Source of the DNA: Mermis nigrescens
Lineage: Eukaryota > Nematoda > Enoplea > Mermithida > Mermithidae
Direction of reading: 5' to 3'
Assembly: GCA_036768485.1 (NCBI GenBank)
Contig: JAVLUZ010000341.1
Coordinates: 2,101,658-2,165,657 of the forward strand
Length of the DNA stretch: 64,000 nt
Below are positions 15,611 through 28,511 of this stretch, piece by piece. A model generated the notes under the pieces. That model did no database searches. It was not told where the DNA came from and was given only the letters and a program-made list of their open reading frames with translations. Position 1 is the first letter of the stretch. Every line of letters begins with the position of its first letter. A program made the translations under genes and the position numbers.

Positions 15611-16175
15611 GAATAAGTGTGCCATGGTATTATCTGTAACCAGCATTAGGTTACAATTTATGCTGGTTACTGCATTTACCTTTTATTACAGAAAAGCTTT
15701 GTTTTGTACAGTTGACCTTGTTGCAAAACCTGGGTCTCTTAATTTAACAATAATCTCTCATTCAAATTTCTCAGTCTGAACCATGACAAAACATGCACAT
15801 ATGACGTGCCATATAAAAAATAGGCAGTACGTTTTTTTGTTTCTTCTGGCCTGGTTTTTTCCAGCATCGTTTTGTTGCTTGCAATTCAGCGTACAGTGTA
15901 AAAGCGTTTGGTAATTAAACTATTCCAATTTCTTTAATTCGCTTGTTTGATGCCAATTTGGCTTCCAGCTGTTACAGCTAAGTTTAATTTTACAGTTATT
16001 ACATCACAGTGCAAAAGCATCGGAATTCTAGTGGGTCATAAACAGCCTGATATTTAATTATCACTTTCTGTAATATTTTCATATTATCAAAGCGTTCAAA
16101 ATTAATTGCATTAAAGGGGAATTGGACCAGTCAGGCATTGCTTTCTTATCTTGGCATTGGATGGTTTGAACTCGT

Positions 16176-18140
16176 TTGCTACAATCTTTCAGGTTTTGTT
16201 TAGTGACCGGAACAAAGCTGAAAACGTCAAATTTATATAAAACCAAGCAGATCACAAGTGGAGGTTCTACTGAGATCCAATACCAAACGAGAAGCAAAGG
16301 TCCTGCCTGGTCAGCAGTTCCTTTAGACATACTTCTCAGGCAAAACAAATGCAAAAAGACAGTAAAATTTTTGCAAAAAAGTTCTCCTAGGATAGCTCAT
16401 GAGCCTGTTGTAACGTTTGATTTGAATCTGGACGATTTTAGCAAAAATTTTTTGGATCCGGAAAGCAAGCTTTCAACAGATTTGCAGCAAAAAGGGGAAA
16501 AATTAAGTGAAATGTGCAGATTTAGCAAGTCACCTTCAACTACTCCCAAGACTCCACTTCAATTTGTGCCACCTACCGCAGACCAGCTTCAATCCCAAAA
16601 AATGAGATTGAAATGTGTAAGAAATTCATCAACAAAAGAAGAGCAAAACTTTTCTCCACACATTGACCAACCTTGTACATCAAGTGGGGTTGAATCAGTC
16701 CATTCACAATTTTCTCGAGCTTCAGATTTTGGTTTTTCACAGTTTTTGAAATCTCAAACACCAGCTCCACCAGTTGTTGTCTTGAGTCCACACATCACGC
16801 CATTTAATTATTTGCAAACAGCTAATACATGGTCGGCATATCCAGGGTACCCTCCACAGGTTCCATCCTGGCAGCATCCTATGGCTGTTTTCCAACCAGC
16901 AGCACCTCAGTTCTACGGACCCCAGTTTCAAGCTCATGAAGCGGTGCCAAATCAGTTCAGTTGGGTTAATTATGCACAATTGGGGCAGGGAGCAGCTGAG
17001 GAGCAACAGCCTAGGATGCAGCCTCAGGAAACTTGGGAAGGGAGCTATAGTAAATTTATTAGCATTTTGACCAAAAGGTACAGAGAATTCATGGAGACAG
17101 ATGCAAAAAGTGTGCTTGATTTTTTTCAGCACTTTTGACAATTTGGCTGGCTGCAGTTTACCACTTAAATGCTCAGCAAAAATTGACAGCTTTTCAAGTT
17201 ATTTTAGGTGGCTTAGCCCTTAGAACATATCAGTCATTGCCTACCCACATTAAGAATAATTTTAATTTATTGAAACAGAAGTTCATATCAAATTTTACAG
17301 ATTTTAGTTGACCAGACAAGACGCGCCAGCGATATGAAAGTCGTTGGCAGAACATAGGCAAAACGGTGGAAAAAAAATATTACACGGAATTGTGGTCACT
17401 CGATTGTCTAGCTTATCCTGAATGAAGTGACCAAATACTGTGTGAGGATATGGTCTACAGATTTGTCTATGGCCTGACCGATGAAATTCAGGAGCGAGTG
17501 CATTTATTTGGTATGCCATTGACTTTGGATGAAGCGCAAGAGAGGGCGCTGAATGCGGAAATTTTGATGGCGGCCAGAAAATCGAAGAATCCGATTTTGG
17601 TCAATGCAGCATGGCCAATCCACAGCAATTGGACTTTTAAGCCAGATGGACCAGCGCCCGACAAGCGAATAGATCATTTGGAGGCGGAAAATTGGAATTT
17701 GATGAAGGAGCTGGACGATGGTGAGAAAAAATATGCAATGTTTTTTTCTAATGCGTCTAATAATATATCTGGGAAATCAGTTAATCCAAGAAATTTTGGT
17801 GAAACTCCTAATAATAACTTGCAGAGTAACCAAAAATTATATCCTTATTGGCAAAATCAGAACTTTAATTTTGAGCCATCTTGTCAAAATTTTCAGAGAA
17901 CGTGTTTTGATAGCTTTCCACATTATTTTACGGCTCGGAACCGGAATCAAAGTCTTTGGCCACCTCAGCCAAGTGCGAATTTTAGGTATGCTAGGCCCGA
18001 AATTCAAATTTGTGGTGTTCTGAATATCAGATGTATGGACATTCTACGGAAAATTGTAGATGGAAACTGAAAAAAGACCAAAATGTTTTTCAGCAGGAAC
18101 GGAATGGAAACCAACATAATGAATTTGTAAATTCACATCA
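16176..18140 (+). pseudogene. Retrotransposon gag, decayed, ends at the Polinton
   Basis: The first frame (16176-17138) is a proline- and glutamine-rich N-terminal region. After frameshifts near 17135 and a stop near 17310 the reading continues through 'RYESRWQNIGKTVEKKYYTELWSL' and then 17450-18070, with 'VYRFVYGLTDEIQERV' and 'EAQERALNAEILM'. These are typical of the capsid-like domain of Ty3/gypsy-type Gag in invertebrates. Near 18000-18060 a third frame holds a CCHC-like knuckle ('CSEYQMYGHSTENC') with its second cysteine changed to tyrosine. The gag stops being readable about 30 bp before the left Polinton end. An intron-like acceptor (atctttcag) lies just after the nominal start, so the true start is uncertain. 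Env-like sequence appears on the far side of the Polinton in the same orientation. Confidence 0.65.
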
Positions 18141-18165
18141 GTAGTATGCCCTGCAACCCTGGCGT

Positions 18166-18218
18166 GTTCCTGAACTAGTAGTTCCAGAACTAATAGTTCG
18201 GGAACTAGGTTCAGGAAC
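18166..18218. repeat. Terminal palindrome in the left TIR
   Basis: The arms GTTCCTGAACTAG and CTAGGTTCAGGAAC pair with one bulged base around a centre that is itself near-palindromic (agttccagaact). A related, less perfect block is at 28185-28228. Such a segment could fold into a hairpin at the element tip. Confidence 0.6.
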
Positions 18219-18715
18219 TTTTTTCCCATGTTATAGTATAGGCGGCTGTGGAAGGCAGTTGGAAAATGGGGGTTGAAATGTGCGCCCTGGCTCTGAGAAT
18301 GTGCACCCTGAGGGGGTTCCCTGTGTTATAATATAGGCAGGGGTTTGGGTTGCGCCCTGAGTGCACCCTGGGTATTTTGCCAAAAAAATAGTTGTCCCTG
18401 GGGGATGAGGTAGTTCCGGAACTTTCAAAAACTTATCCCTGGGGGAAGGGGGTAGTTTGGGAATTTTCTAAAGTCCCTAGGGAAGGATATAGTTTATGAA
18501 CTTTCAAGAAGTTGTCCATAGGGATGGGGGTAGTTTGGGAACTTTTGTCCTTGGGGGGTAGGGAGTTTGGGAAATTTCAAAAATTGTCCCAGGGGGAGGG
18601 GCCACCAACAAGGGTTAATTAGCGCCTTCTCTTTACACTTAGGATAAGAGGGGGCGAAGGAGGGTAGTATAAGGTAGGCCTATGATAGGAATAGGATAAG
18701 AATGGGATGGTGAAC

Positions 18716-18845
18716 CACTTTACACCACTTTACATTTTACACTAGTTTACACTTTAAACTACTTTACACAAGTTTACACTTTACACTTCTTTACACTTTA
18801 CACCACTTTACACTTTACACGACTTTACACCTCTTTACACTGTAT
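18716..18845. repeat. 'ctttacac' minisatellite in the left TIR
   Basis: Short units such as 'tttacaccac' and 'tttacacttta' repeat about a dozen times. The reverse-complement array is at 27550-27685 in the right TIR. Confidence 0.8.
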
Positions 18846-18942
18846 GTTACATTTTTTTGCTGCTTTTAAGCATGAGCATAGAATGAGAGGATTTGCGCGG
18901 GTCACAAGCACCACCAAAGCGCTGTTTTTGGAGGAAAAAAAC

Positions 18943-19735
18943 TTACTTCACTTGAGGCATTTTTGTAATCAGATCATAATGATGATTATTAGCAGCATGT
19001 AAATCAAGCACCTTATCAGCCACAGGTCCTTGAAAAAACAAAATATTATTATAATATACTTTTATTTGGTAGTCGGGCACTAGAACTTTTTGTATTTTTT
19101 CAACAGCCTCAAGACCATATTTATCTTCACTGATGTTAATATTAGCCTTATGCATTAAATCTAAAGCTAGCTGTTTTTGCAAGAGTGTGACGTGCCCTGT
19201 CACCTTTCCGAATAGATTCCCATTTTGGGCTACTGTCCAGCTTCGCTATTCCTGTTACAATAGCTCTTGGTAGCAATAAATTATCATTTGATGTAATTTT
19301 AATAAATGCTCCTCCATTTTTGCAGAACTCACTCACATCAAATTCCAGACCACAACCTATTTGTGGTCTTCTATCGATGAGTACTACCTTAAATTCCATG
19401 TCTTTGTTGAAGCAAAGCTCATTCTTCAATTGAGCCACATTTTCAATAATACTCAAAACCTTATCAGCATTAATATACTTGCGCTCAGTAAATGGAACTA
19501 ACACAGGCGTATTAAGGCTTGGCTGTCTAATTTCAATGCCTGCCATACTGTCGGAAGAGCAGCCATGTAACATCTTGTTAATAGCTTCCTCAAAAATCTG
19601 TTCAAAAATCTCAAAGAGATTAAGGCATTCATAAAGGTTCTTAAAACGCAACAAAAATGCCTTGGCGGTTGTCCTAAACCCAAGAACAGAAATGCTTAGG
19701 GGTTTATGTATTTCAAAGTACTCATTCAGATCCAT
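18943..19735 (-). pseudogene. POLB: Polinton DNA polymerase B, N-terminal fragment only
   Basis: The minus-strand frame from 19735 and its frameshifted continuation (19203-18943) resemble the region before the exonuclease domain of Polinton protein-primed PolB. Landmarks are 'GCGLEFDVSEFCKNGGAFIKI', 'LLLPRAIVTGIAKLD', then 'YGLEAVEKIQKVL', 'DYQIKVYYNN' and 'NNHHYDLITKMPQV'. In intact relatives the ITKMP block is followed by a cysteine-rich 'YYCxxC' stretch and then the exonuclease and palm domains. Here the frame ends just after ITKMPQV, where a good splice donor (GTAAGT, 18946-18941) lies. About two thirds of the protein is absent. One frameshift near 19190 disrupts what is left. The last 150 bp lie within the TIR and so are duplicated at 27294-27450. 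Confidence 0.75.
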
Positions 19736-19765
19736 TTTTGAGTAAAATTATATGTATGTATATCC

Positions 19766-19777
19766 ATATTTATAGAC
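19766..19777 (-). promoter_or_regulatory. TATA box for the PolB fragment
   Basis: Minus-strand GTCTATAAATAT ends 31 bp before the ATG at 19735. It is one of a pair of divergent, near-identical TATA modules in the 88-bp intergenic gap. Confidence 0.7.
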
Positions 19778-19782
19778 AAAAA

Positions 19783-19797
19783 TCTATAAATACTAAT
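19783..19797 (+). promoter_or_regulatory. TATA box for the gene at 19824
   Basis: TCTATAAATACTAAT, with the ATG 27 bp further on. It has the same 15-base form as the boxes at 23240 and 24594. Confidence 0.75.
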
Positions 19798-19823
19798 ATT
19801 TTGTTACTTAAAAAATAATAAAA

Positions 19824-20165
19824 ATGGAGGAAATTCAGGAAATAAAAAAGCGTTCATTCGTGGACATGGAAAGGAAACCATATGGGAGGTCAATAAAGCC
19901 GCCCATTGAGATATGTGGTCGTAATATGGAGAGGCCCATGTACCCTTTGATGATTCAACTTTCTTATTTTTGCCAAAAAGCATCGTGTGAACAGGAATTT
20001 TTTGAAACTAACGGGGGTCTATGGTACATTATTATTCAGATGTGCCCTAGATGTGGGGAATATAATAGAGCAGCGCAGGAGGCTGGAACAAAAGTGCTCA
20101 AACGGTATGCATCAGAAGCAGCCAAAGAACTAAAAGCTAAAATTGCTCAAGAAAAAAGTCTATAA
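19824..20165 (+). CDS. Polinton accessory protein with possible zinc site
   Basis: An intact 113-codon gene. The N-terminal 45 residues are basic. The middle holds C-x4-C ('CQKASC') and, about 23 residues on, 'CPRC', four cysteines that could bind one zinc ion in a ribbon-like fold. The C-terminal third is an alanine- and lysine-rich helix. I do not recognise the family. The start is set by an ATG 27 bp after a strong TATA module, giving a very short leader. Its stop (within 'agtctataa') overlaps the TATA box of the next gene. That it lacks lesions, unlike most neighbours, may just reflect its small size. A DNA- or transcription-related role is possible but is only a guess. Confidence 0.6.
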   Translation: MEEIQEIKKRSFVDMERKPYGRSIKPPIEICGRNMERPMYPLMIQLSYFCQKASCEQEFFETNGGLWYIIIQMCPRCGEYNRAAQEAGTKVLKRYASEAAKELKAKIAQEKSL

Positions 20166-20168
20166 ATA
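20158..20168 (+). promoter_or_regulatory. TATA box overlapping a stop codon
   Basis: GTCTATAAATA precedes the ATG at 20207 by 38 bp. The 'taa' inside it is the stop of the upstream gene. Confidence 0.7.
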
Positions 20169-20206
20169 TGAACCCACTAGCGTAATTTCAATAATCTCTT
20201 AAAAAC

Positions 20207-20533
20207 ATGGCTTCCCCCAGAGAGCTTACCTACCAGCAATTTATCCTTAAGCTTGTTGAGAAAGCATGTAAACGGTTTGTGACAAATCGTGATGTTCATA
20301 GTATAGGTGCGTTTTTCTGGAGAATTGTTAATGATGAGTTTAAGGAGCAAAGAAAAGAAGAGCTCAAATGCGACGCATTTTGGCAGTTTGCGTTGGACTT
20401 GAAAGATTGTATTCTGGAAAAGAAAATGGAACAGCTGTTCAGCCTATGGCAACAGTTCAATTCAAATGGGAAGAACCTGTTTGAAAATATGTACGATAAT
20501 TGTATTTGGTACAACGTAAATTGTCTTATATAG
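20207..20533 (+). CDS. Polinton accessory protein, unknown
   Basis: An intact 108-codon gene, predicted mainly helical, with many aromatic residues (FFWRIVNDEF, DAFWQFALDL, FSLWQQF) and no signal peptide, cysteine pair or nucleotide-binding motif. I do not recognise it. It lies between the zinc-site gene and the integrase, on the same strand, with its own TATA box. The ATG chosen is the first after that box ('aaaaacatgg'). It could be a small nucleic-acid-binding or scaffold protein, but no direct evidence shows this. Confidence 0.55.
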   Translation: MASPRELTYQQFILKLVEKACKRFVTNRDVHSIGAFFWRIVNDEFKEQRKEELKCDAFWQFALDLKDCILEKKMEQLFSLWQQFNSNGKNLFENMYDNCIWYNVNCLI

Positions 20534-20542
20534 CTCTCCCAT

Positions 20543-20550
20543 TATAAATA
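20543..20550 (+). promoter_or_regulatory. TATA box for the integrase
   Basis: TATAAATA with a following 'ttaaac'; the ATG at 20574 is 23 bp further on. Confidence 0.6.
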
Positions 20551-20573
20551 TTAAACTAGTTTTCTCATAAAAA

Positions 20574-21617
20574 ATGGACAAAAAATTGAATAATTTGTAT
20601 CACAATACTAAATCGGGGTACTCTGGTGTAAACCAGCTGTACCTCAGAGCCAAAAAAGTATTTCCAAAATCAAAAACAAAACAATGGTTAGAAAAGCAAC
20701 CATCATATACTTTGCACAAACCTGCATTAAGAAAATATTTGCGGAACAGGGTTTTAGTAAGCAGTATTGATGAACAGTGACAAGCTGGTCTGGTTGATCT
20801 CCAATCACTATCTCAGCATAATGATGGGTACAAGTCTTTATTGAACTGTATAGATATTTTCTCAAAATACTCATGGTCTATACCCTTAAAAAGCAAATTT
20901 TTTTAATGATATTGTTGAAGCTTTCCAGAAAATCTTTAAAGATCGAAAACCGTATAAATTACAGACTGATGCAGGTAAAGAATTCGTGAACAAAGAGTTT
21001 CAGAAATGTTTAAAATCTGAATCTGTCAACTTTTTTGTTACTAAAAGCGAAATAAAAGCATCGGTAGTAGAACAATTTAATCGCACATTAAAAGAGAAAA
21101 TGTGGCGGTACTTTACTAAAAAGAATACGTACAGGTACATTGACGTCTTAGACAATCTCATGCATAATTATAATCATTCTATGCATAGAACTATAGGTAC
21201 ATTTCCAGCAAACGTTACGCCAAAAAACGAGCAAGAAATTTTAAATAAAGCCTTTTGCATTACAAAAAAGATGCAGTATTTAAGTTCAATGTTAGTAATA
21301 AGATACGTCTAAGTAAAGTTAAGCGCACTTTTGAAAAAGGATACTGGCCCAATTGGACTGAAGAATTTTATATCGTTAAAGAGAGATACGCTAGAACACC
21401 ACCAGTGTATAGTTTAGAAGACCAAATGGGTGAAAAATTAGAAGGCATTTTCTATGAACCAGAACTGCAAAAAATTGACAGTTCAACTGAAGATTTATTC
21501 ATTGTCGAAAAAATTCTAAAAACTCAAAAACGCGGCAACAAAACTGATTATTTTGTTTGATGGAGAGGTTACCCGCCCAAATTTGATTCTTGGGTCCCTG
21601 ATCTGATAAATGTATAA
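20574..21617 (+). pseudogene. INT: Polinton integrase with chromodomain, decayed
   Basis: Encodes a retroviral-type (rve) DDE integrase. The N-terminal segment has the 'LYLRAKKVFP' and 'WLEKQPSYTLHKP' blocks common upstream of the core in Polinton integrases. The core shows 'GLVDLQSLS' (first Asp), 'LQTDAGKEF' (second Asp) and 'VVEQFNRTLKEKMWRYF' (Glu). Near the C-terminus a chromodomain is visible ('FIVEKILKT' and 'WRGYPPKFDSWVPD'). In life the protein would join element ends to target DNA, with the chromodomain aiding target choice. Lesions are a TGA at 20778-20780 where Trp is usual in 'QWQ', frameshifts near 20900 and 21250, and a TGA at 21558-21560 inside the chromodomain. The final stop is TAA at 21615-21617. 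Confidence 0.85.
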
Positions 21618-22080
21618 ATGGTAATTTTGAATCTGATTTTGAAACAGGAAAAAATGGAGTCTGGTCATTGTTTCTTCAAGCAAATTGCAAAATGTCTACT
21701 TTTCTGACACGCTATTTTAGTCTTTTCAAGCTTCATTAGGAAATGCTTAGAAAAAGGCAACGTGTGCACCCTGTCCAAGTTATGCCGGTATTTAAGCCCC
21801 AAGACTGAATTTTATTCTGCTAATCTTTATGCAAAAAGCTTCATTATGATCACATTTCTTCATCTAAAAAGCGCAAATTTTTTGTAAAGTTTGGAAAATT
21901 CCTTGCAAAGTTTTGGAAAATTTTTGTAGAGTTTGAAAAATTTCTTGCAGAGTTTGGAATCAATTTTATATGCTTAAGGATAGCAAATTTGTAGACATTA
22001 GAAAATTTCTTGTAAAGCTTGAAAAATTTCTTGCTGGAATTGAAAAATTTTTGCAATGAATGAAACTTTAGTTCCTTCAA
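21618..22080. other. Gap between integrase and TBP-like gene
   Basis: Non-coding 460 bp. The right half (21880-22060) is built of loosely repeated 'gtaaagtttggaaaattt' units. No further gene is visible. Confidence 0.5.
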
Positions 22081-22081
22081 T

Positions 22082-22591
22082 TTAGCATTGCTCAAGCATT
22101 GATTCAACTATTTTATGTGCTATATGCAATTCATGCTCTCTTTTTGCACCAGTGAGAATCATTTTTCCGCTTGTAAACAGTAAAAACGTTACATTTCTGA
22201 ATTAATATATTAAGCCAGGAAAGAGTTCTACTTCATACATGCATTTTCTTTTAATCAACTCATAAAATTTGCAAAGATTTATGCAAAATCCTAAATCAGC
22301 AGAGCCTACAAACAGCTGAGGCTGTATTTTTAGGTAACAGGCTTGTGCATTTATTAGCTCTATAAAATGTTTTATTGTATTTTCGCCATCTTTAACTTTT
22401 TTAGCTCCTACACATACCATTTTACCTGACTTGAATATCAATAACGTAGCATGAGGTGGTTGATATATGATACCTGGAAATTTCTGAGGGTTATATTGAG
22501 CAGTATTTGGTAATTTTGCATATATCTCATCTAGATCAAGTGTGTCTTTAAGTGCTGCAGTAAGCACTATGTTCTGAATAGTAACCGTTTT
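22082..22591 (-). pseudogene. TATA-binding protein (TBP) homologue carried by the Polinton
   Basis: Read on the minus strand, 170 codons match the two-repeat saddle core of eukaryotic/archaeal TBP (about 180 residues). Repeat 1 has 'TIQNIV', 'QYNPQKFPGIIY' and 'FKSGKMVCVGAK'. Repeat 2 has 'VGSADLGFCINL', 'ELFPGLIY' and, after the stop, 'FTSGKMILTGAK'. All four phenylalanines that kink the TATA DNA in TBP are present (in KFPG, LLIFKSG, ELFPG and FLLFTSG). The Asn of 'IQNIV' in repeat 1 is kept; its repeat-2 partner is not. One in-frame TAA at 22202-22204 interrupts repeat 2, and about three residues are missing beside it. There is no frameshift. No in-frame ATG precedes 'KTVTIQN', so the start is lost or unusual. 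A minus-strand TATA box lies 29 bp upstream. The neighbouring gene on the other side is the ATPase, divergently oriented. Confidence 0.85.
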
Positions 22592-22600
22592 CTATATATA
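22592..22600 (+). promoter_or_regulatory. Possible TATA element for the ATPase
   Basis: CTATATATA, 32 bp before the ATG at 22633. It is a weaker match than the other boxes in the element. Confidence 0.45.
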
Positions 22601-22620
22601 CCCACCTGTTTCTTAATACA

Positions 22621-22628
22621 TATTTATA
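22621..22628 (-). promoter_or_regulatory. TATA box for the TBP-like gene
   Basis: Minus-strand TATAAATA followed by 'tg', 29 bp before the first TBP-like codon. It lies in the same short divergent spacer as the ATPase promoter. Confidence 0.6.
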
Positions 22629-22632
22629 AACC

Positions 22633-23284
22633 ATGATTTTTCAACACCCTTTTACTTGCCTTGTTTCTGGGCCAACAAAGTCTGGCAAGACAACTTTTGT
22701 CAGGCAATTATTAGAAAATAGAGCACACTTGATTGATACAAAACTTAAAAAGATTTGGTGGTGCTTTGCCAAAAATCAGCCGCTGTATAAGGAAATGCAA
22801 GATGTTTCATTTATAGAAGGGCTTCCTGATTTTAGTTATTTAAAAAAGTTTAGTCCAATGCCACAACTTTTGATATTAGATGATCTAATGCAAGAGAGCA
22901 AGGGTAATGTTCAAATTGTACAGCTTTTCACAAGATGTCATCATTGGAATATTAGCATCATTCACATTGTTCAAAATGTGTTCTTTGAAGGCCTCAGAAC
23001 TTCACGCATAAACTTTGATTATATAGTCTTATTTAAAAACCCTGCCGATCAATTACAGTCACAAATTTTGTCTCGGCCAACTTTATCCAACAAATTCCAA
23101 ATATTTCCTAGAAGCTTATTCTGATGCTACCTCTCAGCCACATGGCTATCTCTTGATAGATCTCACCCAAAATGCTAGAGATGAATTAAGACTTAAAACA
23201 AACATATTTAGCAAGCATCTGACTGTTTATGTAAAAAAATCTATAAATACTAATAATGACGGTGTAACCAATAAAAATGGGTAA
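22633..23284 (+). pseudogene. ATP: Polinton packaging ATPase (FtsK/HerA type)
   Basis: The ORF begins 'MIFQHPFTCLVSGPTKSGKTTFV', with Walker A at GPTKSGKTT (residues 14-22). Walker B is LLILDDLM near residue 80. A following 'QLFTRCHHWNISIIHIVQNVF' block matches the sensor region of A32-like genome-packaging ATPases. In viruses of this lineage the enzyme pumps DNA into the capsid. A frameshift near 23095 moves the rest into another frame, whose last block ('PHGYLLIDLTQNARDELRLK') is the usual C-terminus of the family. That frame ends at 23284, overlapping the next start codon by 8 bp and covering its TATA box. All key ATPase motifs remain, so the frameshift is the main damage. Confidence 0.85.
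23240..23254 (+). promoter_or_regulatory. TATA box for the pX-like gene
   Basis: TCTATAAATACTAAT lies inside the end of the ATPase reading frame. The ATG at 23277 follows 23 bp later. Confidence 0.75.
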
Positions 23285-23627
23285 AGAACGATTAAAACGC
23301 AATATTGTGTGCTTACACCTTCTGAGTCGAGCAAGAAAACCTCAAAGGGAGTCAATTATAAATACTGCCAGTAAAGATCAAATACTTTGTCTTTGTGACT
23401 GTGCAAGCAATTTTTTAAATGGTAATATTCCTTTTTCCGAAAAATATATAAACAAACTTTGGAGATATCAAAATCAAATAAGACGTCTGGCAAATAATAA
23501 ACAAATCAGTTCAAAAGACAGAAAAAATATTATAGTACAGGATGGTGGTTTTCTTCCTCTTTTGTTAACTCCAATACTTACAATTGCAGGCAGTCTTTTA
23601 GCTGATGCAATAACAGGTAGAAAATGA
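23277..23627 (+). CDS. Polinton small virion-core protein, adenovirus pX-like
   Basis: An intact 116-codon gene. The first 75 residues are basic and helical. Near residue 93 a 'GGFLPLLLTPILTIAGSLL' hydrophobic segment follows a short acidic/Gly hinge, then 'ADAITGRK' ends the protein. A 'GG-(I/F)-LP-x-L' segment near the C-terminus is characteristic of adenovirus core protein X and of the corresponding small proteins in Polintons and adintoviruses. The likely role is DNA condensation or membrane interaction inside the particle. Its stop overlaps the next start (aaATGA). No lesion is visible. Confidence 0.6.
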   Translation: MGKERLKRNIVCLHLLSRARKPQRESIINTASKDQILCLCDCASNFLNGNIPFSEKYINKLWRYQNQIRRLANNKQISSKDRKNIIVQDGGFLPLLLTPILTIAGSLLADAITGRK

Positions 23628-24191
23628 AATATACTGAAAAAATGATTCTTATACCCACTGAAATCAGCGAGCGGACTAAGCCTATTGATGTTAGTGCTAG
23701 AGTCCTTGGATAATGAGATGCAGAAAGTGTTGAACAGCAAAAATATACCATCTTATTTAAAACTTATAAAATATAATCAGATACTTGGCAAATTTAAGCG
23801 ATTGCATGAACAGAAACAGGAACCGTACAAAGCCAATATAATTGAATATACAAGTGATGTACTTAGCAATGATGAAATACTAACTGCTATGCCAAAAAAT
23901 CAAATTCCTAAGGCTAAAATGCTTCTCCACTATATTTGTACAAACCCTTTTATTGAAATAGAGTCTGATGGTGAGCTTGTTATATATGGGCAAAAAATTG
24001 AAGGCTCAAACATTACAGATTTAGTTAATGATTTAGCACGTGAGCGTAAGAAAATAAGCAGACATCCTGGTACAAAGGAATTGCTGAAAGTGTTGAACCG
24101 CACAAATGTCCCACTAGCAAGTATTGGTAATAGACAAGGTAGGGAAATTTTTGCCGCAGGTGATGACTTTGACTGGGACAAAAGTCTATAA
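23624..24191 (+). pseudogene. Conserved Polinton protein of unknown function
   Basis: The ATG at 23624 overlaps the stop of the pX-like gene and opens 'MKYTEKMILIPTEI'. A frameshift near 23690 leads into 'MLVLESLDNEMQKVL', and the frame then runs to 24191. The middle 'ILTAMPKNQIPKAKMLLHYI' and 'GELVIYGQKIEGSNITDLVNDLARERKK' are typical of an uncharacterised protein found in many invertebrate Polintons, usually just before the small virion-like genes. No catalytic motif is visible. It has no TATA box of its own, so it probably shared the pX transcript. Its last codons ('DKSL' and stop) overlap the next TATA box. Confidence 0.6.
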
Positions 24192-24194
24192 ATA
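24184..24194 (+). promoter_or_regulatory. TATA box overlapping a stop codon
   Basis: GTCTATAAATA, with the ATG at 24232 downstream by 37 bp. The 'taa' is the stop of the preceding gene, the same arrangement as at 20158. Confidence 0.75.
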
Positions 24195-24231
24195 CCTTGT
24201 GTGTTTCAATTTTTGTGAAATAATCACAAAA

Positions 24232-24647
24232 ATGCATGTTCAATTTACTCCCAACAATTACAACATTTGGCTGGAATATTATACAGGGCAGGCTGCCCAA
24301 ACTGGTTATGGATTGGATGGGTTTAAGGGCATCCCATACCAGCGGGGCGTTGGTCTTGGCAACTTTTTCCGCTCCCTATTCAGAATGGCCATCCCTGTTT
24401 TGCAATCAATTGGTAAGCAAGTTGGAAAGCATGCTTTAGTTGCAGGTTCAAATATAGCATCCGATTTGGCCCAGGGAAAACCTCTTTTTAGTCTACTAAA
24501 AAGCATTCAAAGCGAGAAGCTGCCCAACTTTTTGATGAAGTATCTCATGCCCTAGAACATCAGCAAGGAGAGGGTCTTGGTAGTCACCCAAAGTCTATAA
24601 ATACTAATGCACTTGATGCGTTTTCTAAAAAAACATGGCTCTCATAG
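24232..24647 (+). pseudogene. Polinton amphipathic virion protein, adenovirus pVI-like
   Basis: Begins 'MHVQFTPNNYNIWLEYYTGQA'; after 'GFKGIPYQRGVGLGNFFRSLFR' it carries 'AIPVLQSIGKQVGKHALVAG'. A Gly-rich run followed by an amphipathic helix is the pattern of the membrane-active pVI-like proteins of Polintons and adintoviruses; this assignment is by pattern, not by a tested match. A frameshift near 24510 shifts the C-terminal part ('LFDEVSHALEHQQGEGLG') into a second frame that would end at 24647, overlapping the capsid gene start. The TATA box of the capsid gene lies within that tail. Confidence 0.55.
24593..24608 (+). promoter_or_regulatory. TATA box for the major capsid gene
   Basis: GTCTATAAATACTAAT, with the ATG 27 bp later at 24635. 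It sits inside the C-terminal part of the pVI-like gene. Confidence 0.75.
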
Positions 24648-25928
24648 ACGTAAAATCTATTCCGAGTACTAAAACTGAGTTAGACCTTTTCACGGTCCCT
24701 CCTACCCAAGTGGTAGTAAAGCGTGGCTTTTGGCATGAAATACAACCAACGCATCCCATAACTAATGAGGGACCATATGAATTTAGAATACCTCCTGATC
24801 CTCATTATATTCAGCTGAACAAAAATTACATTTATATGCTACTAAGAATTAAAAAAACCAACAGTTGCTGCAGGATCAGTAGTACCTGACTATGCACTTA
24901 TCAATCTTATTGGTAAAACTTTTTTCAAGCAAGTAAAATGTTTTCTAGGAGGCCGTTTAGTTTTTGACAGCTCCGATAAATAAGCATATAGATCTTATTT
25001 TGAAACTGAATTAAATTATGGATTTGATGCAAAGCATTCACACTTACAGGCAGCATTATATTTTCATGATGGCAGCATTAATGTTGACACAAAAGATAGT
25101 GAATCATTCAAAAAGCGAGCTGCTATGTTTAAAGATGAAAATTTTGTAGAAGTTGTGGCTCCACTGCATATTGATATATTCTTGCAAGATAGGTATTTAG
25201 TCAATTTTACCAATTTTTGCTTAGAATTACACAGAAATAGTAATGCATTTACTTTACAGTGCTTTGAAGATGTTAACTTAGATTTGAAAGTCACTCAAAT
25301 GAAATTTTTTATTCAAAAAGTTGAGGGTTTGGACACAGTAAATTTAGCTCTAGAGCAAACAATGCTTTCATACACAGCCAAATATCCTATAACGCGTGTA
25401 GCTATCACTAACTTGCATATATCAAACCCTGCTAGGGAAACGCCAAATTATACATTGTTCACTGGTCAGCTACCTAGACGTATTGTATTTGCTTGTGTTG
25501 AAGGCAGCGCTTATCGAGGCAATCTAGCAAAATCGCCTTTCAACTTCAAACCTTTCAGCATATATGATGCAAAAGTAACGTGTGGGGGTATAACCTACCC
25601 TGCTTACCCACTTGGCATTGCATTCAAACACGATAGGTACTTGCAAGCCTATAATCAAATGTATGATGCACTCGATATAGGCCGTGAAGGTAATTTCATT
25701 AGCAGAGATAAGTTTAAGACAAGTCACTGCTTTTTTGTATTCGACTTGACACCTGATGCAGATGATGAGGGGTATTGGGATCTAGCACATGAAGGAACAA
25801 CAAGCATAAATGTAAGGTTTGCTGATAATTTGCCTGATTCTGGCATAGAAATCATTATAAATGCTGAATTTGATAATTTAATAATGATTGATAAAAATCG
25901 AAATACATTTCATGACTATAGTGCATAA
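24635..25928 (+). pseudogene. MCP: Polinton major capsid protein (double jelly roll)
   Basis: The N-terminal piece (24635-24889) has the family opening: 'KTELDLFTVPPTQ', then 'FWHEIQP' and 'YIQLNKNYIYMLLRIKK'. After a frameshift near 24880 the frame continues to 25928, with 'NLIGKTFFKQVKCFLGG', 'PLHIDIFLQDRYLVNF', 'RIVFACVEGSAYRGN' and 'GYWDLAHEGTTSINVRF'. These blocks are typical of the Polinton major capsid protein, which forms trimeric hexons. Total length is near 430 codons, in the usual range. Besides the frameshift there is one TAA at 24981-24983. The remainder is well preserved, and the stop is 2 bp before the protease ATG. Confidence 0.8.
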
Positions 25929-25930
25929 AC

Positions 25931-26356
25931 ATGAATACTATGGAAGTATTTAAAATTCTTGAACGTAATATCAAAATGGATATGTTCTTTGGGCATTTTT
26001 CCATTAGACCGCGTACCACCTATAAAAACTATCCTGCAGCTATAGTGGTTAATTTGGATGCTAGCAATGAGCCTGGTTCACACTGGGTTGCTTTGTATTT
26101 TGTAAGCAAGAAACGCTGTGACTATTTTGATAGCTATGGCTTAGAGCCACCTGTGCAATTGAAGCATTATATTTCTGATAATGTGCTTTCATTTACATAC
26201 AATAATGTCCAAACACAAGAGCTTTTTTCCATTAGTTGTGGACATATGTCCATCTACTTCCTCTTATGCAGGAGTAATGATGTTCCCTTCAAAAATATTG
26301 TTCTATCTACGCTGAGCAAAAAAATTTATAAATACTTTGATAAGCTTAAATTGTAA
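25931..26356 (+). CDS. PRO: Adenain-like maturation protease
   Basis: An intact 141-codon gene. The catalytic order expected for adenovirus-type (C5/Ulp1-like) cysteine proteases is visible: His in 'GSHWVALYF', Asp in 'YFDSYG' about 20 residues on, and Cys in 'SISCGHMSIYFL' near residue 102. Such enzymes cleave capsid and core precursors inside the particle. The N-terminus is short but normal for the family. The ATG comes 2 bp after the capsid stop, and no TATA module lies directly upstream, so co-expression with the capsid gene is likely. This is the only full-length enzyme gene of the element without a lesion. Confidence 0.85.
   Translation: MNTMEVFKILERNIKMDMFFGHFSIRPRTTYKNYPAAIVVNLDASNEPGSHWVALYFVSKKRCDYFDSYGLEPPVQLKHYISDNVLSFTYNNVQTQELFSISCGHMSIYFLLCRSNDVPFKNIVLSTLSKKIYKYFDKLKL
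26327..26334 (+). promoter_or_regulatory. TATA box for the minor capsid gene
   Basis: TATAAATA followed by 'ctttg', inside the protease C-terminus. The ATG at 26359 is 24 bp downstream. Confidence 0.65.
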
Positions 26357-26358
26357 AA

Positions 26359-27137
26359 ATGGATACTAAACAATTCTATTTAACGCTTCCGAGCAATTCA
26401 CAGGAAGCCAATACTGCGGCTACATTTGTAACTGGCCTGCCAAGGCAAATTAGATTATCTGGCGATTGGGAAGTTGGTTTAGCTGAGATAATTTATGCTA
26501 ATACATGGCACAATGTTGCTGAGGATCAGAATATGATACAATTTTATGATTTAAAAAATAATGTACGAGTAAAATTGCCTTATTCCTAGAGCTAGATACC
26601 AAAATATACACGATCTTATTAAAACAATCAGTTAGGGAATGAAAATGGTTAGTCAAAATGAAAAATTTGAATATACTGAGTACCTGACTTTCAAGTATCA
26701 TGAAAATAAGAAATTTTGTCATATAGTAATTAACACTGCATACATTAAAAGCTTAAAGCTAACAAATCATTTGATGTATATGTTAGGCTTTTTAGATAGT
26801 CAGCTTAAAAATGTAAATTATACTCTTGCACAAGAAGTGACCATAGCTGCCCATCAACTCTCCTAACATGCTAGGCGGAATGCACAATTTTTATGTTTAT
26901 TGTGATATAATTGAGCCTCTGATTGTTGGAAACATTTTTGCACAACTTTTGCAGGTTGTAAACATTGAAGGAAAATACATGGATATTGTAAACCATGCAT
27001 ATATTAGCCCACACTATATACCCATGCTGAAGAAATCATTTAACACAATTGAAATAAATATCAAAACGGATCAAAATCAGCTTGTACCATTTGAATTCGG
27101 CAAAACTATCGTAAAATTGCATTTTAGACACCAATAG
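26359..27137 (+). pseudogene. mCP: Polinton minor capsid (penton-like) protein, broken
   Basis: Three frames carry successive parts: 26359-26589 ('FYLTLPSNSQ', 'GLPRQIRLSGDWEVGLAEI'), 26639-26866 (internal part) and 26868-27137 ('NFYVYCDIIEPLIVGN', 'FNTIEINIKTDQNQLVPFEFG' and 'IVKLHFRHQ' at the end). The opening TLPSN and the closing FYVYCDIIEP/PFEFGK pattern are characteristic of the single-jelly-roll minor capsid protein of Polintons, which forms pentons at the vertices. A stop at 26587-26589 and two frame changes make it inactive. It is the last capsid gene before the right end. Confidence 0.75.
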
Positions 27138-27139
27138 AC

Positions 27140-27147
27140 TATAAATA
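27140..27147 (+). promoter_or_regulatory. TATA box for the last Polinton gene
   Basis: TATAAATA, starting 3 bp after the minor capsid stop, with an ATG 30 bp further on at 27178. Confidence 0.65.
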
Positions 27148-27177
27148 AAACCTATGTAGGTTACATATAATACAAAA

Positions 27178-27293
27178 ATGATTTTCTTGTTGGTGCTCTT
27201 ACATTCCACATATGGGGTTGATCCATGTATATGACAATGAGTTATGGTAATTTGCCATAATTTAGCAGACTATAGTAGCATGTCACACTCTGC
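27178..27293 (+). pseudogene. 5' end of a secreted/membrane protein gene, cut by the TIR
   Basis: The ATG opens 'MIFLLVLLHSTYGVDPC', a short typical signal peptide. A stop follows, then in a shifted frame 'VMVICHNLADYSS'. At about 27293 the sequence passes into the right TIR and the gene ends. The downstream part of the same protein is recognisable outside the element at 29748-30153 ('MVVCHNLADCSTLPRS'). So the last gene of the element was probably an extracellular cysteine-containing protein, removed when the TIR reached its present extent. Confidence 0.5.
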
Positions 27294-28239
27294 AAAAATA
27301 CAAAAAGTTCTAGTGCCCAACTACCAAATAAAAGTATATTATAATAATATTTTGTTTTTTCAAGGACCTGTGGCTGATAAGGTGCTTGATTTACATGCTG
27401 CTAATAATCATCATTATGATCTGATTACAAAAATGCCTCAAGTGCTGTAAGTTTTTTTCCTCCAAAAACAGTGCTTTGGTGGTGCATGTGACCCGTGCAA
27501 ATCCTCTCATTCTATGCTCATGCTTAAAAAGCAGCAAAAAAATGTAATGTACAGTGTAAAGAGGAGTAAAGTTGTGTGAAGTGTAAAGTAGTGTAAAGTG
27601 TAAACTTGCATAAAGTAGTGTAAAGTGTAAAGTGGTGTAAAGTAGTGTGAAGTGTAAAGCAGTGTAAAGTGTAAAGTGGTTAACCATTCCATTCTTATCC
27701 TATTCCTATCATAGGCCTACCTTATACTACCCTCCTTTGCCCCCTCTTATCCTAAGTGTAAAGAGAAGGCGCTAAGGAACCCTTGTTGGTGGCCCCTCCC
27801 CTGGGACAATTTTTTTGAAAGTTCCCAAACTCCCTCCCCCAAGGACCAAAATTCCCAAACTACCCCCATCCCTATAAACAACTTTTTGAAAGTTCCCAAA
27901 CTACCTCCACTTCCCTAGGGACTTTAGAAAATTCCCAAACTACCCCCTTCCCCCAGGGATAAGTTTTTGAAAGTTCCGGAACTACCTCATCCCCCAGGGA
28001 CAACTATTTTTTTTGGCAAAATACCCAGGGCGCATTCAGGGCACAACCCAAACCCCCGCCTATATTATAACACAGGGAACCCCCTCAGGGCGCACATTCT
28101 CAGAGCCAGGGGGCACATTTCAACCCCCATTTTCCAACTGCCTACCACAGCCGCCTATACTATAACACAGGAAGAAATTTCCCGAACCTAGTTCCCAAAC
28201 TATTAGTTCCGGAACTACTAGTTCCGAACACGCCAGGGT
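27294..28239. repeat. Right Polinton terminal inverted repeat
   Basis: Inverted match to 18156-19098. From inside out it holds the copy of the PolB-fragment end (plus strand, 27294-27450, ending at a GTAAGT donor at 27447-27452), the 'gtgtaaagt' minisatellite (27550-27685), the 55-bp unit array, and the palindromic tip ending 'gaacacgccagggt'. Confidence 0.9.
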
Positions 28240-28245
28240 CACAGG

Positions 28246-28511
28246 CATATGTGGGCAGCAAGAAAATTCTGGGGGGGGGGTGCAAGATTTTTTGAAGGTC
28301 AAAAAATGGCCTTAAAAATGGTGGTATGGCGATAAAAACACCATTTTTCGACGTTTCTCATCAAGCACTATCCATTGGCATCAAAAAATTGCAGAAAAAA
28401 ACGAAAAAAATTTTCAAAAATTGAATTCTGGGGGGGGGGTATTTTTGATTTCTGGGGGGGTATTTTGGTTTCTGGGGGTGCATACCCCCCAAACCCCCAC
28501 GCCCAGGTGTG
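28246..28511 (+). mobile_element. hAT-type MITE (family A) next to the Polinton end
   Basis: Full copy, CATATGTGGGC to CCCAGGTGTG, starting 7 bp after the right Polinton terminus. A second copy follows after one base. No matching 8-mer flanks were found for either. Confidence 0.7.

Follow-up and report, generated by a model that had tools for sequence, protein, structure and literature searches.

Polinton elements of the nematode Mermis nigrescens carry a gene for a TATA-binding protein and TATA boxes that it could serve

Introduction

Polintons, or Mavericks, are adintovirus-like mobile elements with a double-jelly-roll capsid protein and a usual length of about 15–20 kb. Among the promoter-recognition factors of archaea and eukaryotes, the TATA-binding protein (TBP) is the most conserved, and it is normally encoded by cells. 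Here we analyse a 64,000-nucleotide stretch of the genome of the mermithid nematode Mermis nigrescens (GenBank assembly GCA_036768485.1, contig JAVLUZ010000341.1, forward-strand positions 2,101,658 to 2,165,657), referred to in its entirety as the window, in which a decayed Polinton encodes a TBP. This element and its relatives in the genome resemble described Polintons in their terminal inverted repeats (TIRs), rve integrase, A32-type packaging ATPase, capsid, adenovirus-type protease and, in some copies, DNA polymerase B (polB); they differ by an added TBP gene and by TATA boxes ahead of many of their genes, and the window copy, at 10.1 kb with TIRs of approximately 0.96 kb, has lost most of polB.

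Each of these two features has a partial precedent. Sections of an account of mavirus-type EMALEs describe a TCTA motif in an AT-rich setting before many genes, matching the late promoter of Cafeteria roenbergensis virus (CroV), and mention no TBP (PMC8547959); the elements here likewise have one promoter motif ahead of many genes, in this case TCTATAAATA, but carry a TBP of their own. Among eukaryotic DNA viruses, one survey reports TBP in 59% of mirusviruses against 0% of Nucleocytoviricota (PMC10132985), and TBP is also described from a green alga whose genome has elements of putative mirusvirus origin that carry it (PMC10675990). What mirusviruses share with the present elements is the presence of a TBP, and they are large viruses with HK97-type capsids. 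Giant viruses encode proteins with the TBP fold, several being named TATA-box-binding protein in the BFVD library, and the archaeal Haloarcula virus HJTV-2 has an annotated TBP. Full-text searches of the open-access literature listed no report of a Polinton or Maverick TBP, and the Polinton and polinton-like-virus papers checked for the terms do not mention TATA, TBP or transcription factors outside their reference lists.

Our analyses suggest that the TBP is probably a genuine, long-resident Polinton gene encoding a minimal TBP, by which the element would bring its own promoter-recognition factor while using host TFIIB and RNA polymerase II, a reading that rests on promoter, residue and selection evidence. 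The combination, in one small virus-like element, of a TBP gene with TATA boxes to match it makes a testable case of mobile DNA that brings its own transcription switch, in a genome where places with TBP matches number over a hundred. It is relevant to the source of viral TBPs and to the way in which Polintons activate their genes.

Results and Discussion

A TBP gene within a decayed Polinton

A preliminary description, made from the window sequence without database searches, had proposed that a minus-strand frame between the integrase and ATPase genes of a Polinton encodes both repeats of a TBP, with all four DNA-kinking Phe kept, one in-frame stop, no frameshift and no ATG. Every part of this proposal was borne out. 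The 169-residue translation contains both repeats: upstream of the stop, a 129-aa piece gives a PF00352 match in two stretches (E 1.2e-30), and the 39 aa downstream of the stop match as well (E 1.9e-7), each above the curated cut-off, so the profile search that the description had recommended gives significant matches. When folded with 22 relatives, with the in-frame stop read as a residue (NCBI table 6), the predicted model adopts the saddle fold (mean pLDDT 92.4), with 168 residues superposing on human TBP at 1.2 Å. Alignment to yeast TBP shows the four kinking Phe (yeast F99, F116, F190 and F207) all retained. By sequence and predicted fold, the frame encodes a TBP, and it is flanked by the integrase on one side and the A32-type ATPase on the other (Table 1). 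The first piece finds as its top solved-structure match the TBP of Sulfolobus acidocaldarius (1mp9, E 6e-33), with which it shares a Pro-Gly after the first Phe, and eukaryotic TBPs at E 4e-26 or weaker. Identity to the host TBP is 35%, and ranges over 35–46% across host, yeast and Sulfolobus TBPs.

The window copy of the gene is dead. It has a single in-frame stop (22202–22204) and no frameshift, and the frame opens without an ATG; given how often stops occur in the window, 169 codons should contain approximately 9.6 of them (P for one or fewer, 6e-4). The two TIR arms are 91.5% identical including gaps, with 52 differences over 943 aligned bases and 10 indel events. If the arms were identical at insertion, substitutions alone would put a mean of 0.44 stops in the TBP frame, and at least one in 35% of simulations, and hence the frame is compatible with an open state at the time of insertion. 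By this calculation 2.6 indels would also be predicted in the frame, where none is seen; either the TIR indels lie partly within tandem repeats or the arms were not identical at insertion.

TBP recurs among Polintons of the genome

We searched the genome (524 Mb, 860 contigs) with a TBP profile and scored the best 150 of 2555 candidates, all of which were over the cut-off. Among the scored rows, eleven pairs each represent a single gene in two halves, and the host gene accounts for two rows; a hand count gives at least 138 TBP places, of which at least 137 are non-host, counting both the window copy and its duplicate. Stops fall inside the TBP match in 8 of the 150 rows. For closer study, stretches around non-host TBPs were fetched, 19 hand-chosen for diversity and five hand-picked from a stepwise list of 20; four of these five belong to or lie near the window subfamily. 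Integrase, polB, ATPase, capsid or protease matches surround the TBP in 18 of the 24 (13 of the 19 and all of the five). Four others (L117, L123, L131 and L133) have accessory Polinton open reading frames (ORFs) only, and two (L127 and L128) have no Polinton ORFs in this survey of flanking matches, for which several reference proteins were themselves derived from surveyed loci, the key ones being Pfam-backed (L126, L120 and L121). The TBP lies between integrase and ATPase in the window element, L116, L124, L126, L134, L137, L138 and L140, and adjoins ORFa in, for example, L117, L118 and L120–L123.

The frame is open, meaning a stop-free profile match of approximately 140 residues or more with no start codon demanded, at 17 of 23 distinct non-host places (25 loci); 19 open frames were counted, 18 of them distinct. 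For the sampled stretches, TBP is thus a recurrent gene of Polintons, in several families, within this genome. The preliminary description had suggested looking for intact versions in other copies, and open frames do exist elsewhere in the genome; it had also named, as what would count against it, copies lacking the gene and a processed host pseudogene at this site, and instead TBP recurs beside Polinton genes and is distinct from the host TBP. Those stop-free frames, like the TIRs and the loss of most of polB, go beyond what was described before.

One copy adds no independent evidence: L116 (G000:C268:1954700-1964600) is a 9.9-kb, 100% identical duplicate of window positions 17497–27397. It lies approximately 164 kb away on the same contig and includes sequence left of the TIR; either the segment was duplicated very recently or the copy is an artefact of assembly.

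Other arrangements were seen around these genes. Two TBP frames stand a few kilobases apart in L119 and again in L130, and G000:C51:3876189-3893195 has three TBP matches at 8.4-kb spacing; these may be nested, neighbouring or tandem elements. An F-box protein gene recurs near TBP (L119:6164-7066, PF12937 4.9e-8; also L118, L120, L121, L122 and L130). ORFa neighbours TBP in several Polinton families, has no PDB or NCBIfam match and could be a candidate partner transcription factor.

Selection and functional residues

The 18 distinct open frames give 153 pairs, of which 23 are comparable (dS between 0.02 and 2). The ratio of non-synonymous to synonymous change (dN/dS) is below 1 in all 23, which are not independent of one another; it is 0.13–0.37 in 22 and 0.62 in the remaining pair, where dS is 0.043.

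The Glu-Glu of the C-terminal stirrup (yeast E186 and E188), which we take to contact TFIIB, is retained in 19 of 19 Polinton rows. All four kinking Phe are present in 14 of these rows, the fourth being Tyr in four and Ser in one. Of the minor-groove Asn pair, the window TBP retains N69 (yeast numbering) and has Leu at position 159, a DNA contact in yeast; among the 19 Polinton rows, 9 have Asn at this position, while the window subfamily has Leu, L120–L123 have Met and a single L130 row has Thr. In 14 of 19 rows the second stirrup is shorter by two residues, and in the five rows of the window subfamily the first stirrup is shortened likewise. Since copies with open frames have the altered residues too, these are not decay of the window copy.

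TATA boxes ahead of Polinton genes

A TATA-type box lies 31–46 nt upstream of 10 of the 11 gene starts tested in the window element (nine TATAAATA, one TATATATA; Table 1), the protease start alone having none. Within the window, CTATAAATA occurs seven times between the TIRs and not once in the 53.9 kb outside the element, and TATAAATA occurs 11 times between the TIRs, where about 1.7 are expected, against eight outside the element. Most TATAAATA sites of the element precede gene starts, and its listed TATAWAWR sites are all between the TIRs, none being inside them. The TBP and ATPase genes share a divergent region, each gene's box being close to the start of the other. The preliminary description had placed the TBP at the element's own promoters, and these are boxes that it could serve.

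The association extends to the copies. Across 20 fetched stretches of 9.9 kb, TATAAATA stands 25–55 nt before the Met of 39 of 94 annotated frames and 6 of 145 unannotated ones (Fisher p 5e-13, an optimistic value because the copies are related, L116 duplicates the window and the 94 count two host exons). By gene, the box precedes ORFb in 8/8 frames, ORFa in 8/10, capsid in 5/8, ORFc in 4/6, ORFd in 3/5, the polB N-terminal part in 3/5 and ORFe in 1/4; the single F-box frame has none (0/1).

Origin of the Polinton TBPs

The host TBP is of ordinary eukaryotic type, 81% identical to that of yeast and split into exons; Polinton TBPs share 30–43% identity with it. We placed them in a 59-row tree of 21 archaeal and 18 eukaryotic hand-picked rows, the host TBP and the Polinton rows (18 distinct frames among them), with no metazoan TBP-related or TBP-like factors (TRF/TLF). 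The 18 eukaryotic TBPs and the host TBP fall on one side of a branch (support 96/83), the archaea on a side of their own (99/99), and 18 of the 19 Polinton rows on a third (91/85). The L125 copy, on a long branch, is next to the eukaryotes and not within them. All 19 Polinton rows are united in 4% of 200 bootstrap trees, and enforcing their union is not rejected by the approximately unbiased (AU) test (p-AU 0.37). In this sampling, Polinton TBPs do not nest inside eukaryotic TBPs, although their exact position is unsure because of the long branches. The preliminary description had envisaged a single element capturing TBP from host or virus. The gene is not from the host, whose own TBP is ordinary and whose Polinton TBPs lie outside the eukaryotic ones, and it is no single oddity, recurring as it does in several families, with an open frame in most of the places examined.

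Trees with the window TBP alone also place it beside, and not inside, the eukaryotes; the first of these was built without L082, P0155 and, beyond the tenth, alternate archaeal rows, and the AU-tested tree also without archaeal viruses. Grouping the window TBP with a rotifer TBP (p-AU 0.0046) or with P0134 (p-AU 0.020) was rejected, and grouping it with two Desulfurococcales rows was not (p-AU 0.102). At 17 sites separating eukaryotic from archaeal TBPs, the window TBP has the archaeal state at seven, the eukaryotic at two and neither at eight.

Two sources were considered and set aside. Archaeal capture was hinted at by the first searches, consistent with the 1mp9 match, but archaeal TBPs occupy their own side once the Polinton copies are added. 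A giant-virus TBP of the BFVD library is unsupported as a source, since the 50 listed matches are just 6–22% identical in Foldseek alignments, well below the values for the TBPs of host, yeast and Sulfolobus. Protein searches, with 17 and 59 candidates, gave no relative above 41% identity, and the Polinton TBP clade may be rare in the searched protein data or have been missed by the word filter. Searches of IMG/VR with TBP, capsid and mixed alignments returned no relative; they yielded three contigs encoding TBP, judged archaeal-viral from their ORFs. One search of phage records gave a single archaeal virus in two records and another gave none. A promoter 18-mer was found in 23 IMG/VR contigs, none with a capsid or TBP match at E<=1, and the richest, L095, resembles a tailed phage.

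It is possible, though we hold it only tentatively, that Polinton TBPs are a third deep TBP lineage that split near the archaeal/eukaryotic divergence and has been kept since by virus-like elements with a self-contained TATA regulon. If so, a Polinton-type virus with its own basal transcription factor would have been carried through eukaryotic evolution.

Proposed mechanism and alternatives

We infer that a TATA regulon driven by the element's TBP is the best-supported mechanism. After entry or reactivation of the element, the Polinton would make its own TBP, which would bind and bend TCTATAAATA boxes and recruit host TFIIB through the kept Glu-Glu stirrup contacts, and thereby host RNA polymerase II; the element, TBP gene included, would then be switched on as one regulon. 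The altered minor-groove and stirrup residues may tune the protein to the element's boxes or free it from regulators of the host, for example TFIIA, NC2, Mot1 or TAFs.

Several observations weigh against such a regulon. For the window element, the counts followed a choice of motif and gene starts made by eye. A twelfth gene, ORFx, lay outside the 11-start test and has the box in 0/4 frames of the fetched copies. Only 5 of 24 TBP frames have the box, the 24 including two host exons, split pieces and the dead window-type copy; with the looser TATAWAWR within 70 nt, 10 TBP frames match, one at a TA repeat. The TATAAATA box precedes 2/6 ATPase, 0/5 integrase, 0/5 protease and 0/3 polB catalytic frames, some of which may not include the gene start. 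By these counts several genes carry the box, in several families, but not every gene does. DNA preference may also differ, because Asn159 is replaced by Leu throughout the window subfamily, intact copies included, and the host TBP could be able to read the same TATA boxes.

The alternative that fares best, although we consider it unlikely, is a decoy or saboteur: the Polinton TBP would mainly compete with the host TBP for TFIIB, TFIIA or promoters, damping host transcription, and the element's boxes would be read by host TBP. Universal retention of the presumed TFIIB contacts, together with stirrups shortened in many rows and the loss of Asn159 from the window subfamily, would suit this role; the kinking Phe, complete in most rows with a fourth-position Tyr in four more, argue instead for retained DNA bending, and the element's richness in TATAAATA also counts against a decoy.

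Host TBP also binds TATA boxes, and the boxes might be ordinary host-type promoters, the TBP being kept for another role. The many TBP genes with no box in the tested range fit this reading, yet the confinement of CTATAAATA to the element within the window speaks against it, and we regard it as improbable. Slightly less credible still is an architectural role, in which TBP, a DNA bender whose gene adjoins that of the packaging ATPase, would bend DNA during replication, integration or packaging, the TIRs being one conceivable site, and not act in transcription: the listed TATAWAWR sites avoid the TIRs and most TATAAATA sites stand before gene starts. Derivation from the host TBP, by recent capture or as a processed pseudogene, which the stop and missing ATG of the window copy might have suggested, can be dismissed, the pseudogene being excluded by the genome copies (open frames beside Polinton genes in many sampled stretches), the trees (grouping of the window TBP with a rotifer TBP or P0134 rejected) and the residue and identity comparison with an exon-split host TBP far closer to yeast than to the window frame.

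Organisation of the window element

Several genes of the element are broken (Table 1), and copies elsewhere help to identify them. The window integrase piece matches Pfam below cut-off, and an NCBIfam IS481 transposase model at 2.5e-7, also below that model's cut-off, whereas copy L126 matches rve (2.3e-11) and a chromodomain above cut-off. The capsid piece matches the Pfam double-jelly-roll model below cut-off only, but is 72% identical to metagenomic protein P0009, whose model matches the double-jelly-roll capsids of Paramecium bursaria chlorella virus 1 (PBCV-1), Sputnik and mavirus; its nearest named relative is from Romanomermis culicivorax (57% over 64% of the query). The protease of copy L121 matches Peptidase_C5 (1.3e-6), and copy L120 has DNA_pol_B_2 (1e-19) near its TBP. 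The minus-strand frame at the left end, with no Pfam or NCBIfam match, we take from its resemblance to be the N-terminal part of polB.

Table 1. Features of the Polinton in the window (window coordinates).
Feature	Position	Strand	Remarks
Polinton TBP, two-repeat TATA-binding protein	22085..22591	-	Pfam, solved-structure match, predicted fold, tree
TATA box of TBP gene	22621..22628	-	37 nt before frame opening
Left TIR	18145..19102	+	958 bp; 91.5% to right TIR
Presumed polB N-terminal fragment	18943..19735	-	extends into the left TIR, where it ends; L120, L124, L126 and L134 have homologous frames
TATA box of polB fragment	19767..19774	-	
TATA box of ORFa	19785..19792	+	TATAAATA; 39 nt from ORFa start
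ORFa	19824..20165	+	small protein; CPRC zinc-ribbon-like motif (by eye); adjoins TBP in other Polinton families
TATA box of ORFb	20161..20168	+	
ORFb	20207..20533	+	kept in other copies
TATA box of integrase	20543..20550	+	
rve integrase	20574..21560	+	several broken frames; single open frame (rve + chromodomain) in copy L126
TATA box of ATPase	22593..22600	+	TCTATATATA
A32-type packaging ATPase	22633..23284	+	Pox_A32 4e-6, above cut-off; frame broken near 23124
TATA box of ORFc	23242..23249	+	
ORFc	23277..23627	+	small protein, conserved among copies
ORFx	23646..24191	+	conserved among copies; no Pfam match above cut-off
TATA box of ORFd	24187..24194	+	
ORFd	24232..24555	+	small protein directly upstream of capsid gene
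TATA box of capsid gene	24596..24603	+	
Double-jelly-roll major capsid protein	24635..25928	+	one frameshift, one stop
Adenovirus/ASFV-type cysteine protease	25931..26356	+	African swine fever virus (ASFV) S273R E 2.5e-4; Pfam below cut-off
TATA box of ORFe	26327..26334	+	
ORFe	26359..27137	+	three broken frames
Right TIR	27291..28249	-	959 bp

The TIR ends as aligned have no matching 6 bases of a target-site duplication and may be rearranged. The inner TIR edge lies inside the presumed polB frame (18943–19102 and 27291–27450), so that the same stretch of the fragment's end is present in both arms, as if the polB catalytic region had been deleted and the new end then copied into the other TIR. 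To the left of the element (16170–18144) are open frames, the last with a zinc-knuckle-like motif (by eye), which may be a retroelement gag. Immediately to the right is a different repeat, with more copies near 3.3, 5.7, 30.6 and 39.1 kb of the window.
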